A program made the position numbers and the translations under genes. From an archaeon HR01 (GTDB lineage: Archaea; Thermoproteota; Nitrososphaeria_A; Caldarchaeales; Caldarchaeaceae), in NCBI GenBank assembly GCA_002898355.1, contig BEHD01000006.1:1-64000 (forward strand): a DNA stretch of 64,000 nt, written 5' to 3'. Below, one piece after another: positions 4,472 to 42,883 of the stretch. Positions within the stretch are counted from its first letter, which is position 1. Every line of letters starts with the position of its first letter. A model generated the notes under the pieces. It was not told where the DNA came from. It saw nothing but the letters and a program-made list of their open reading frames with translations, and did no database searches.

Positions 4472-4770
4472 TTTAGTTTTATTATCACGGACCTGTATCT
4501 TCTCCGAGGATATCCGCCGTCAGACCCGTTATGCCCTTAGATGGTTTGGATGGGTTGTTCCTTGGCTAACCGGCTGTTTCTCATGAGGCTAGGTAGGATA
4601 TCAATGGTAGCAGCGACCTATACCTATCATCATCCGCCTGCTGAGCCCTTCTCCTCCTACACCATACACACATACAACGAGGACTATGCCGCCTGCCCAT
4701 AAAACACCATGTAGAACATCCCTATTATCACTAGGACTGGAGCGTGCAGGAATCCTAGTGTCCGGATAAC
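4472..4770. other. intergenic, no supported gene
   Basis: Short frames exist on both strands, including a minus-strand 73-codon frame from 4822, but none has protein-like composition or a promoter. I see only the promoter of the following RNA candidate at its right end. Confidence 0.5.
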
Positions 4771-4772
4771 GT

Positions 4773-4780
4773 CTTAAATA
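4773..4780 (+). promoter_or_regulatory. TATA box for structured RNA candidate
   Basis: CTTAAATA on the plus strand. It predicts transcription from about 4800-4806, just before a run of strong RNA helices. Confidence 0.5.
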
Positions 4781-4799
4781 CCAAAACTTAGGGTCTAAA

Positions 4800-5052
4800 A
4801 GTATCGAAGTTGCAGAAGACATTACTCCAGCAAATCTGGTTGACAGTCCGACGGGAAGCCCAAAAGAGGCTGGCAGGCATACCGGCCCAACAGGGATAAA
4901 ACCCGTAGGCCGGTATGACTAACTTTTGGACGTCCCAGCATTTTGCTGGATACGACCCCACCTAAGACGTCCGGCCTCTTTTTTGTTTCCTAGGTGTTGT
5001 TTGGTGGATGCCTGCCAGCCGACCACTCCTCCTATTTTTTCCCTTCTTTTCT
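4800..5052 (+). ncRNA. structured RNA candidate upstream of the moaD-like gene
   Basis: No frame here is convincing as protein, but several perfect inverted repeats nest together. Helix A: 4868-4880 (GGCTGGCAGGCAT) with 5008-5020, 13 bp. Helix B: 4878-4887 (CATACCGGCC) with 4908-4917, 10 bp, with an inner GGG/CCC pairing. Helix C: 4928-4934 (GGACGTC) with 4966-4972, enclosing hairpin 4935-4940/4944-4949 (CCAGCA/TGCTGG). Helix D: 4862-4870 (AAAAGAGGC) with 4974-4982, followed by a T run at 4979-4984. Helices A and D share bases 4868-4870 and so exclude each other, as in a conformational switch. A TATA box precedes it, and T-rich tracts at 5034-5053 could terminate it. I do not recognise RNase P, SRP RNA or a known riboswitch. 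Ends are approximate. Confidence 0.55.
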
Positions 5053-5063
5053 ATTGCGAGTTT

Positions 5064-15521: not shown

Positions 15522-15674
15522 AACGCCGCAGAGCTAGCTAACAAGCCTTCAGAAAAACCATACACGCCTCAGAAACATGCCGGAGACGGCGTAACCCTCC
15601 CAGCTGGAGGCATAGCCGCCAGACAGCATCTAGGAGACCCAGAGTTGATGGATGACAAAAAATATGTGGGGTTC

Positions 15675-16265
15675 TCAATAGTAGCCGGGTTTGGCGTAGG
15701 GTATGGACCAGAGGGCCACTGTGAGCGTGACGGCCTTGAACCAGGCGTTGAACATCTTCTCCACATCCTCCTGTGAATGGCCTTTTTTGGCGAGGAAGGG
15801 CTTGATGGTGGCTGTTATCGGATATATGAAGGCTATCATATATCTCAGCGGTATGTGGTCGACGCTGTCCACCCTGTCGGTCTTGTTCTTCTTCTCCCGG
15901 CTGTGCCTCAGACCTATCTCATACTGGTAGTCAAGCCATGCACGGTCGTAGCTTCTGTAGCAGATGTCCAATATCCACTGGCCGAAACGCCTCCTGACAG
16001 CCTGCAGGTATTCGCCGATGGGCTGCCCTGTCTTACGGTCGCCGAAGTAGTAGACAAGATGCGGGTTGGAGCCAACCCAGCCATACCAGAGGTCTAGGAT
16101 GCTATCCACCTGGTCCTTCAAAACCTCACCAGCCATCCGTAGATACCTGATGTCCTCATCCCCCAACATCACGGTCTTTTTGAGAAGCTCCAGCTCCTTA
16201 TCGGTTATGGGGGCTTTAGGAATCGACGGGTCACCATACATGTATCCGGGGATGGTGCCGCTCAT
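15675..16265 (-). CDS. protoglobin
   Basis: A 196-residue single-domain globin of the protoglobin type, a heme protein known from methanogens and Aeropyrum that binds O2, CO and NO. Family features are an N-terminal extension with GYMYGDPSIPKAPI, the F-helix GLRHSREKKNKTDRV with proximal His121, and PLRYMIAFIYPITATIKPFL in the G helix. Length matches methanogen protoglobins. It is divergent from a double-HxlR regulator with which it shares 110 bases. It may detoxify or sense NO or O2 here, since other genes in the window handle copper and NosL-like chemistry, but no electron-transfer domain is fused. Confidence 0.9.
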   Translation of the reverse strand: MSGTIPGYMYGDPSIPKAPITDKELELLKKTVMLGDEDIRYLRMAGEVLKDQVDSILDLWYGWVGSNPHLVYYFGDRKTGQPIGEYLQAVRRRFGQWILDICYRSYDRAWLDYQYEIGLRHSREKKNKTDRVDSVDHIPLRYMIAFIYPITATIKPFLAKKGHSQEDVEKMFNAWFKAVTLTVALWSIPYAKPGYY

Positions 16266-37507: not shown

Positions 37508-37857
37508 CACACCACCTTCTTGACCCACCTAGACTCTCCAGCCATCAAAGCTCTTAGGTCGTTTCTGGATGTTGTACTCTTCATCTGTAGCTTCTCACGC
37601 ATCTGTTTGAGCATCGTCAGCCTTCTGAGGTAGAAGACCCTGACACCTCTTCTGAGAAGCTCTATGAACTCGTCGGTAAGCTCTAGAGGTATAACATCCA
37701 CGTACAGTTCGTCACCATCTTTGGTAGGTATATCGGCTATCCTCTTAGATTTCCCGAACTCCACGCCGTCAGTAGTGTATGTATGGTAGTTCTCTTCGGC
37801 CTTATTTCTGCGACTCTTGTTAGCCAACCTATATACATCAACATAACACCTTACCAT
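37507..37857 (-). CDS. hypothetical protein upstream of the homing endonuclease
   Basis: A 116-residue basic protein from ATG 37857, preceded by a strong ribosome site (GGGAGGTG). Central sequence: DELYVDVIPLELTDEFIELL, then RRGVRVFYLRRLTMLKQMRE, with SRNDLRALMA near the end. The alternation of strand, helix and a basic patch faintly recalls the N-terminal part of IS110-type transposases, but the similarity is too weak to name it. The stop overlaps the endonuclease start, so they form one unit. It may be the N-terminal piece of a mobile-element gene interrupted by the endonuclease. Confidence 0.5.
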   Translation of the reverse strand: MVRCYVDVYRLANKSRRNKAEENYHTYTTDGVEFGKSKRIADIPTKDGDELYVDVIPLELTDEFIELLRRGVRVFYLRRLTMLKQMREKLQMKSTTSRNDLRALMAGESRWVKKVV

Positions 37858-40849: not shown

Positions 40850-42883
40850 CTACCCTTCCAGCCGTATCCTAGTGTAGGGTGTCTCATATGCTAGTCTCCT
40901 AAACGGCTCCCCCACACCCTCGTAGAATTTGCTGAAGAATTCGTAGATGTGGAGCCTCATACTCTGTATAAAGACCATCATCCCCTCCAGCAGTATTATC
41001 CCTATATTGCCTATGACGAGTAGGGGTATTGAGACCGGCCCCAAAGCCTCCCAAGCCGAGTTGAGGAGTATCATCAAGGCTGCGTGGACTATGAGAAGTA
41101 TTGTCAGCCTTGCGTAGGATATGGTGTTGGAGAGGAAGTGTATGATGTTCTCCAGAACCTCTAGGAGCCCCTGCCCCACCGAAGATATGACCGAGACCCT
41201 ATGGCCCAGCCCTGTATACCCGGCCACCAGCCTACCCACCATCAGCACCACTATACAGGCCACTGACCCGTAGACACCTATCGCCCCCACCTGGTTGGTG
41301 GGGAGGTTTATGAGGGGTGCTGGAGAGGTGCTGGATAGGATGGATGCCATCTCACCTCCAGCGCCGAAGAATGCAAGGCCGAAGAGTATGCCGAAGATAT
41401 ACATGGCCAGTGTTGGGAGCTTGACGAATAAGGCCTCACCAAGCTCCCTCTCCCTTACGAGCTTCACAATGGATAGCGTGTAGCCGATGACTAGATGCAG
41501 TACACCTAGGAAGATGGTGAAAATAAGCAGTCTCTGGACCTCTGCTATGGCGAATGTCTTGGCACCGCCATGCTCCTCAACAAGATGTATCAGCGCCGGC
41601 GATGGGAGCGTCCCGCTTATTTTGAAGCCGAAGGCTTCACCTATCAAGAACCCTGTGATGCTGGAGGATATCCCGAGTACGGCTAGTATGATGGCCCATT
41701 TCCTCAGCTCACCCATTACCTTTCTCAGCATGAAGAGGGCGAAGCCTAGGATTACGAGGCCCTGACCCATATCGGCGAACATGATGCCATAGAAGATGGA
41801 GAAGAAGAGGGCGACGTATGGTGTGGGGTCCAGCTCGCCGGGTCTCGGAACCCCCTGGATGAAGGTTATCTTCTCGAAGGCTGCCAGAAGACCCCTGTTT
41901 CTGGTGAGGGATGGCCTGCCTCCATGGTCGGAGTGGCCGTCTCCACCCCCTATGAATACTGGATAGCTGGGGGAGAATTTTCCCAGAAACTCATCCTTCT
42001 TCTCAGCGGGTATGTACCCCTTCACCAGGGCGAAGTGTTTAAGCCCTCCACCCCCCAGCCTTTGAAGGGCCTGCCTGACAATCTCGTACCCGTCCCTCAA
42101 GGCTACTAGCAGGCTGCCATGTGTCCTCGCCGTCTCCTCCAACGTCTTCTCAATCTCTGACGCCTCAGCCCTCAGCCTCTCTATCTTATCGGAGACCGCT
42201 GCATAGGCCTGGCTAGGTATCTGGGGGAGGCCTGCGGGTATAGATAACGGTTTGACCCCAAGGCTTTTGAGGACCCTATCCAACGTCTCGCCCGCCTCCC
42301 TCCTAGCAGCCACCAGCATCAGGGTGTAGCCATCCCTGAGTGGTTTCTCGACAACAGCGCCCTCCGTCAGCGAGCGCTTTATCTCACCAGCCTCCGAGGA
42401 TGAGACTACTGCCAGTAGGACGTAGAACCTCTTCAGACCCTGTAGCGTGGAGATGTCGATATCGGTCTCGGCCAGCATGCTGAGGGCCTCCCCAACCCCC
42501 GATAGCTCTGTTATCTGCTCCTCTATCTCCTTCCTCTTCTGGAGAAGCTCGTCAACCCTCTTCTTCAGAGGGTTTAGGTTGCTGTCCAGCTCGTCGAGGA
42601 GGCTTCTAACATCCTCGGCCGTGAAGACCTTCTGCTGCGGAAGGTTTTTGCCGAAGAGCTGGTCCATTATACCTATCTGGTCCTTCACCTTCAGCTCCTG
42701 TATTAGGACTTGGGCGTTGACCGCCCCCAGCTCCGCCCTATGCTCCAGCTGGTGAAGACTGGGGTCCCTGCCGTCCTCAGCCTTGGCGTGAAAATCCCCG
42801 AACGAGTAAAGCTCTTTGAGGAGGTTTTCAAGCCTGTGGCGTGGTGCTATGATGGATACTTCTGCCAGCGGTGCGAGACCCAA
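40850..42883 (-). CDS. atpI: A-type ATP synthase subunit I (a subunit)
   Basis: A 677-residue subunit. The N-terminal half (about 1-310) is a soluble coiled-coil arm forming the peripheral stalk contact (e.g. ELDSNLNPLKKRVDELLQKR and VSDKIERLRAEASEIEKTLE). The C-terminal half has about seven helices that build the proton half-channels. Conserved parts include IFYGIMFADMGQGLVILG, the Arg-bearing late helix HFLSNTISYARLTILLIVHA and LEGMMVFIQSMRLHIYEFFS. No other ATP synthase genes are in the window. A TATA box (42912-42921) precedes the start by about 30 bases. Confidence 0.92.
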   Translation of the reverse strand: MGLAPLAEVSIIAPRHRLENLLKELYSFGDFHAKAEDGRDPSLHQLEHRAELGAVNAQVLIQELKVKDQIGIMDQLFGKNLPQQKVFTAEDVRSLLDELDSNLNPLKKRVDELLQKRKEIEEQITELSGVGEALSMLAETDIDISTLQGLKRFYVLLAVVSSSEAGEIKRSLTEGAVVEKPLRDGYTLMLVAARREAGETLDRVLKSLGVKPLSIPAGLPQIPSQAYAAVSDKIERLRAEASEIEKTLEETARTHGSLLVALRDGYEIVRQALQRLGGGGLKHFALVKGYIPAEKKDEFLGKFSPSYPVFIGGGDGHSDHGGRPSLTRNRGLLAAFEKITFIQGVPRPGELDPTPYVALFFSIFYGIMFADMGQGLVILGFALFMLRKVMGELRKWAIILAVLGISSSITGFLIGEAFGFKISGTLPSPALIHLVEEHGGAKTFAIAEVQRLLIFTIFLGVLHLVIGYTLSIVKLVRERELGEALFVKLPTLAMYIFGILFGLAFFGAGGEMASILSSTSPAPLINLPTNQVGAIGVYGSVACIVVLMVGRLVAGYTGLGHRVSVISSVGQGLLEVLENIIHFLSNTISYARLTILLIVHAALMILLNSAWEALGPVSIPLLVIGNIGIILLEGMMVFIQSMRLHIYEFFSKFYEGVGEPFRRLAYETPYTRIRLEG

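Follow-up and report, generated by a model that had tools for sequence, protein, structure and literature searches.

The 64,000-nucleotide stretch of DNA analysed here (the window), taken from contig BEHD01000006.1 of the archaeon HR01, a member of the Caldarchaeales, contains upstream of a MoaD/Urm1-like gene a short region in which several long helices can be drawn within some 160 bases. The question then is whether this structure serves the neighbouring gene, for example as a leader or a switch, or belongs to something else altogether. The helices noted in a preliminary description of the region are legible directly in the sequence, as are the T-rich ends, and the folding energy of positions 4820-5060 is -83.6 kcal/mol as compared to -66.5 kcal/mol for dinucleotide shuffles (z = -3.77), with only 1 of 200 shuffles folding as well. 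Across 23 aligned copies, from which a covariance model (R1) was built, pairing is kept in 89.0% of cells, falling to 33-56% when the alignment is slid by 1-3 columns. The search for compensatory changes in relatives, proposed as a check in that description, was positive: seven helix pairs have changed on both sides in the 23 copies, with a covariation score that none of 500 shuffles matched. Hairpin 2 was excluded from the covariation analysis, since the RNA subtypes are offset by one column there, and the value of 69.6% paired for most of the last hairpin is probably an underestimate, because the 3' part is misaligned in some rows.

The predicted molecule is a long stem closed by a pseudoknot, on which two variable loops of nine nucleotides each, V1 and V2, would be exposed on either side of a small hairpin (Table 1). 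The region had been described as a switch in which two helices, A and D, are mutually exclusive. The two overlap only at 4868-4870, and on the evidence of the alignment helix A is best read as a pseudoknot strand lying just inside helix D, because 4871-4879 can pair with 5009-5017 without disturbing helix D, and pairing is conserved in the two (91% of cells for A, 97% for D); their coexistence is therefore possible. The other proposal made at the time, a structured RNA that stands on its own and terminates near 5034-5053, finds support. As for known RNAs, no Rfam family reached its gathering score over the RNA at 4852-5033 (best below threshold E = 1.2), and H/ACA or box C/D RNA, RNase P and SRP RNA were dropped as candidates for lack of Rfam support.

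Table 1. Features of the guide-RNA locus in the window (positions are those of the whole window)
Feature	Position	Strand	Basis
Guide-RNA gene, remnant copy of the element's RNA	4852..5033	+	Covariance model R1, 172.7 bits, full length 1-187
35-codon remnant, 3' end of recombinase-like gene, overlapping the RNA	4792..4899	+	Frame GLKVSKLQKTLLQQIWLTVRREAQKRLAGIPAQQG aligned to intact copies; stop codon 4897-4899
Outer stem, 5' strand, pairs with 4985-4990	4854..4859	+	82.6% of cells paired
Helix D core, 5' strand, pairs with 4974-4978	4866..4870	+	97.4% of cells paired
Pseudoknot 5' strand (helix A of the preliminary description), pairs with 5009-5017	4871..4879	+	91.3% paired; two-sided changes in 4 of 9 pairs
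Hairpin 1 (4881-4887/4908-4914)	4881..4914	+	88.8% paired
Variable loop V1 (TAACTTTTG), half of the guide	4920..4928	+	Set by alignment; corresponds to one half of the target in each of the 8 resolved copies
Hairpin 2 between V1 and V2 (4935-4939/4945-4949)	4935..4949	+	Sequence differs in most copies
Variable loop V2 (CCCACCTAA), second guide half	4957..4965	+	Set by alignment; corresponds to the other half of the target in each of the 8 resolved copies
3' strands of helix D and outer stem	4974..4990	+	Covariation analysis
3' hairpin, loop contains pseudoknot 3' strand 5009-5017	5004..5026	+	Covariation analysis
T-rich end, likely transcript end	5034..5052	+	Sequence; T-rich run common to other copies

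Plain blastn places the RNA sequence of the window at many unrelated positions in a few related genomes, and with the covariance model 34 copies score above 50 bits, spread over 5 of the 44 genomes of the order, namely three in the genome of the window itself (G000), eight in G002, one in G005, 19 in G018 and three in G024; at E 0.01, a match is found in 8 of the 44. Within the window, a high score is obtained only for the RNA of Table 1. Where the element is intact, the RNA begins within the 3' end of a recombinase-like gene, whose product of 282-303 amino acids ends in RLAGIPAQQQG, and extends past that gene. The earlier statement that no protein frame explains the region thus has to be amended, as its 5' part is in intact copies the end of this protein, of which the window retains 35 codons. 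The protein is present in 13 of 398 genomes of the phylum, all 13 from the order of the window, and no relatives were found in viral contigs. In the window copy, similarity to full copies begins about 190 bases before the anchor and nearly all of the protein gene is lost; judged by its sequence, this copy is a remnant with an intact RNA structure, and may still be transcribed. A retro-element, as suggested by the 5'-truncated copies, was dropped, there being no such match in the protein family.

Other sequences in and around these copies were also recorded. The window contains at 15580-15773 (minus strand) a weak match to the RNA model (18.2 bits), possibly a decayed copy, and at 37510-37812 (minus strand) a second fragment of the recombinase-like protein family, 47% identical over about 100 residues. 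A noncoding-looking segment of about 180 bp at 4526-4703, 83% identical to G002:C1:727372-727561 and with no Rfam match, may be a conserved RNA or a repeat. Upstream frames resembling a methyltransferase and a piece of a sliding clamp had no match in Pfam or PDB, and the two names are no more than impressions. Further occurrences of the left 600 bp of the G002 elements, at G002:C1:1606385-1606994, 41607-42075 and 188039-189281, have no RNA match and could be hidden insertions. Two copies, L032 and L038, have a similar piece adjoining the RNA; the piece in L038 is the beginning of a gatD gene (GatD_N, 1.3e-19). In copy L034 a different protein of 337 amino acids with similarly spaced aspartates (L034:3336-4349, plus strand) is combined with an RNA and a left region of the usual type, as though one protein module had been exchanged for another.

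What the two variable loops correspond to becomes apparent from the sites at which the copies reside. V1 and V2, which flank hairpin 2 and have nine nucleotides (ten in a few copies), were set by hand for 23 copies before empty sites were searched. Outside this set are L036 (a piece of about 190 bp), L039 and L052, which are without loops, L037, which is without an alignment match, and L047, whose loops are those of L048 and which entered only the G018 test and the test of loops at eight junctions. In the DNA flanking the copies, the reverse complement of V1 is enriched on the right, with four copies matching at least 8 of 9 letters at +45 to +110 as against about 0.3 expected. When left and right flank matches are taken as a pair, 4 of the 23 copies reach 18/18, compared with 2 of 506 swapped pairs; the scores of the other 19, 15-17, lie inside the range of the swapped pairs. 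The pattern is either V2 in the left flank and the reverse complement of V1 in the right, or V1 in the left and the reverse complement of V2 in the right.

Uninterrupted orthologous sites for seven of the G002 copies (L031, L032, L028, L029, L030, L034 and L035) are present in G005, a relative of G002; for L033 no orthologous empty site was found. Conversely, for L038, the copy of G005, the target predicted from the loops, CCAACCTTTATAACAT, is intact in G002, with only the right junction of the insertion visible and its left end not found within 20 kb. At all eight empty-site junctions the copy's own loops match 17-19 of 18-20 letters (18/18 at five sites, 17/18 for L028 and L029, 19/20 for L034), and the 23 other loop pairs match at most 15. 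For L028 and L029 it is G005 that is one base off, the G002 flank matching that loop fully, and L034 obeys the same rule with its different protein. The target is V1 plus the reverse complement of V2, an uninterrupted site of 15-19 bp with an A+T-rich centre, often of the form N6-TTTA-N6. The RNA stores both halves of the element's own insertion site.

The flanks of twelve copies in G018 (HRbin02) find relatives at 69-95% identity, with several clean junctions; at these loci the relatives contain no exact target, the best matches being 12-14 of 18-19 letters and located at the junction only for L053 and L046 (14 of 18). Nine of 16 divergent loci have an exact match of at least 10 nucleotides between the RNA and the reverse complement of the right flank, as compared to 10.8% of 240 swapped pairs, although one of the nine (L061) is a long repeat and not guide-like. 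The sequence behind divergent family members looks structured; inspected by eye, most of the loci displayed show a hairpin. Regulation of the downstream promoter was also considered and rejected: at +56, L040 matches its target but for 3 mismatches of 18, and 97 of 506 swapped pairs are equal or better.

The guides differ far more than the elements that carry them. Five close copies in G002 are 85-96% identical over about 1.29 kb, yet have only 1-8 of 12 guide letters in common, and L031 and L032, which are 96.4% identical, have five in common. Relative to the target, three copies are oriented one way (L028, L032 and L034) and five the other (L029, L030, L031, L035 and L038). Both the left and the right boundaries differ in every resolved copy, right ends falling anywhere from +73 to +838 from the anchor, and the junctions show repeats of 3-6 bp, which may partly be due to chance. 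In the pairs L033/L035, L045/L050 and L043/L051, V2 is common and V1 is not, as if half-guides were kept or exchanged separately.

On the basis of sequence comparison, the protein is distantly related to the IS110 recombinases, which are of the DEDD, RuvC-like type. The NCBIfam model of IS110 (NF033542) matches 7 of 26 members, with a best value of 4.2e-5, and the Pfam model DEDD_Tnp_IS110 (PF01548) matches 5 of 26, with a best value of 0.01; the family profile gives a long alignment with IS621 at a weak E = 0.74, and scanning four close members singly yielded no family match, to these two models or any other. An AlphaFold2 model from four sequences had a pLDDT of 49.8 and did not confirm the fold. 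Since the protein resembles IS110, a TnpB-type omega RNA was dropped as a candidate. Three acidic residues are invariant, D6 in 22 of 22 members, D47 (D, not E) in 25 of 25 and the fourth D in 26 of 26. The third D, which is specific to IS110, is found in only 14 of 26, the other 12 having A, G, S or T there, and is absent in the clade with this RNA. The likely position of the catalytic serine, assigned by alignment only, is S in 10 of 26 and N in 12 of 26, with an adjoining Y in 23 of 26. In IS621, mutating either the third D or the catalytic serine abolished recombination, as reported in PMC11208158.

As described in PMC11187229, PMC11208160 and PMC11208158, the IS1111/IS110 elements with their seekRNA or bridge RNA likewise combine a DEDD-type protein with a structured noncoding RNA beside its gene (downstream, as in IS1111), in which two stretches match both target strands. 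According to PMC11187229 every group of these elements has a site of its own and a single orientation of insertion; one natural case of re-direction is described, between relatives with 72% protein identity. In comparison with these descriptions, the present family has near-identical copies with different guides, each matching its own site; it inserts in both orientations, has ragged ends with 3-6 bp repeats, and does not conserve the third acidic residue nor, as it seems, the serine, and no second, donor-matching loop was recognised in it on informal inspection. A tandem pair of spacers of about nine nucleotides in a single RNA, together with a RuvC-type nuclease, is also described for TIGR-Tas (PMC12045711), where common ancestry with IS110 is proposed and the IS110, TIGR and box C/D guides are linked. 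Compared with the system described there, the present RNA has no array, there being one loop pair per copy, RNA and gene form one mobile unit, and the guides match the element's own insertion site. The element itself has very likely been encountered before, as the transposable element 'a'+'b' of Caldiarchaeum subterraneum described in 2012, of which 'b' (an 813 bp ORF) was predicted to be a recombinase (PMC3293823): the unit a3b4 is placed there beside tRNA-Thr at 503442-503515, a position which adjoins copy L029 at 503574 of G002. Section 6 of that account contains neither the RNA nor guide loops nor a target rule, and it is the RNA and the target rule that are supplied here.

Taken as a whole, we regard it as probable that this is an IS110-derived dual-guide mobile element, which acquires its guide anew at every site it moves to and of which the window copy is a 5'-truncated remnant. 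The IS110 relationship suggests that the protein would bind the RNA, and that V1 and V2 would each pair with one half-site, on opposite strands. The target would then be cut at mid-site with a short stagger, the element would end up there, and both half-guides would be rewritten to match each newly occupied site, such that the element would from then on address empty alleles of its own locus. We infer such rewriting because closely similar copies carry unrelated, exactly matching guides. A nuclease-type mechanism appears more likely to us than an IS621-type recombination, in view of the changes in the active site, the ragged ends and the insertion in either orientation. Capture or homing at an RNA-guided break is preferred to recombination with defined ends because the ends are ragged, both orientations are used and the serine seems not to be conserved. 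To self-reprogramming in the strict sense, in which both 9-nt halves of the site would be copied into the guide RNA and a serine-less IS110-derived RuvC nuclease re-aimed at empty alleles, we would give an even chance.

TnpB/IscB with omega RNA and homing endonucleases are familiar means by which an element targets its own site in the uninterrupted state; here, in distinction to both, the two site halves are stored inside the RNA, away from the ends of the element. That the guides match the uninterrupted form of their own site follows the logic of a homing element, and one could envisage a family bound to its loci, each locus having its own lineage, passed from strain to strain into one and the same site, selection keeping the guides exact, and new loci being colonised rarely through partial matches followed by mutation. 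This reading, to which the three pairs with a common V2 and different V1 also lend themselves, is possible, if somewhat doubtful, as guide divergence lies far above body divergence and no second strain was seen with the same filled locus.

We consider it unlikely that the family consists of ordinary IS110/IS1111 elements with fixed, inherited guides, inserted by pre-existing guides, the differing guides of today being old variants. The protein belongs to the same superfamily, the RNA has two target matches and lies downstream of the gene as in IS1111, and natural re-direction between relatives is known, all of which would be expected under such a scheme. Against it, copies of up to 96.4% identity have unrelated guides, each exact for its own site, both orientations are used and the ends are not conserved; 12 of 26 members lack the third acidic residue, and only 10 of 26 have S at the likely serine position.

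A further reading concerns the window copy alone, which might have been kept as a trans-acting guide RNA directed at another locus, for example together with a protein encoded elsewhere in the genome. The structure of its RNA is intact despite the loss of the gene, related protein genes are still present in G000, and its predicted target, TAACTTTTTAGGTGGG, is matched once, with one mismatch (15/16), between genes of the same genome (G000:C28:5132), which is weak evidence; a reversed-pattern control gives four matches at no more than two mismatches in that genome. With the centre of V1 being G in the window copy, as against T in close copies, we find such a function improbable on present sequence comparisons. 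A function for moaD/cgi121, be it as leader, as riboswitch or as independent regulatory RNA, the interpretation initially prompted by a structured RNA located upstream of moaD, can practically be dismissed, given that the same RNA occurs at many unrelated loci, in or right behind a recombinase-like gene or its remnant, that both helices are conserved together and that there is no Rfam match; moaD is merely a neighbour of the window copy.

In the RNA-guided transposons known to us, the guide is inherited. Should self-reprogramming prove true, it would be a case of guide acquisition by a transposon, of which a literature consulted as titles and abstract openings, with few subscription papers or preprints, contained no description for elements of this kind. 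A single archaeal genome with closely similar copies, each with an exact guide, makes the change of guides directly accessible to study and, if the guide is indeed rewritten on insertion, these archaea would harbour a natural system able to record a DNA address in the very guide RNA that it uses.
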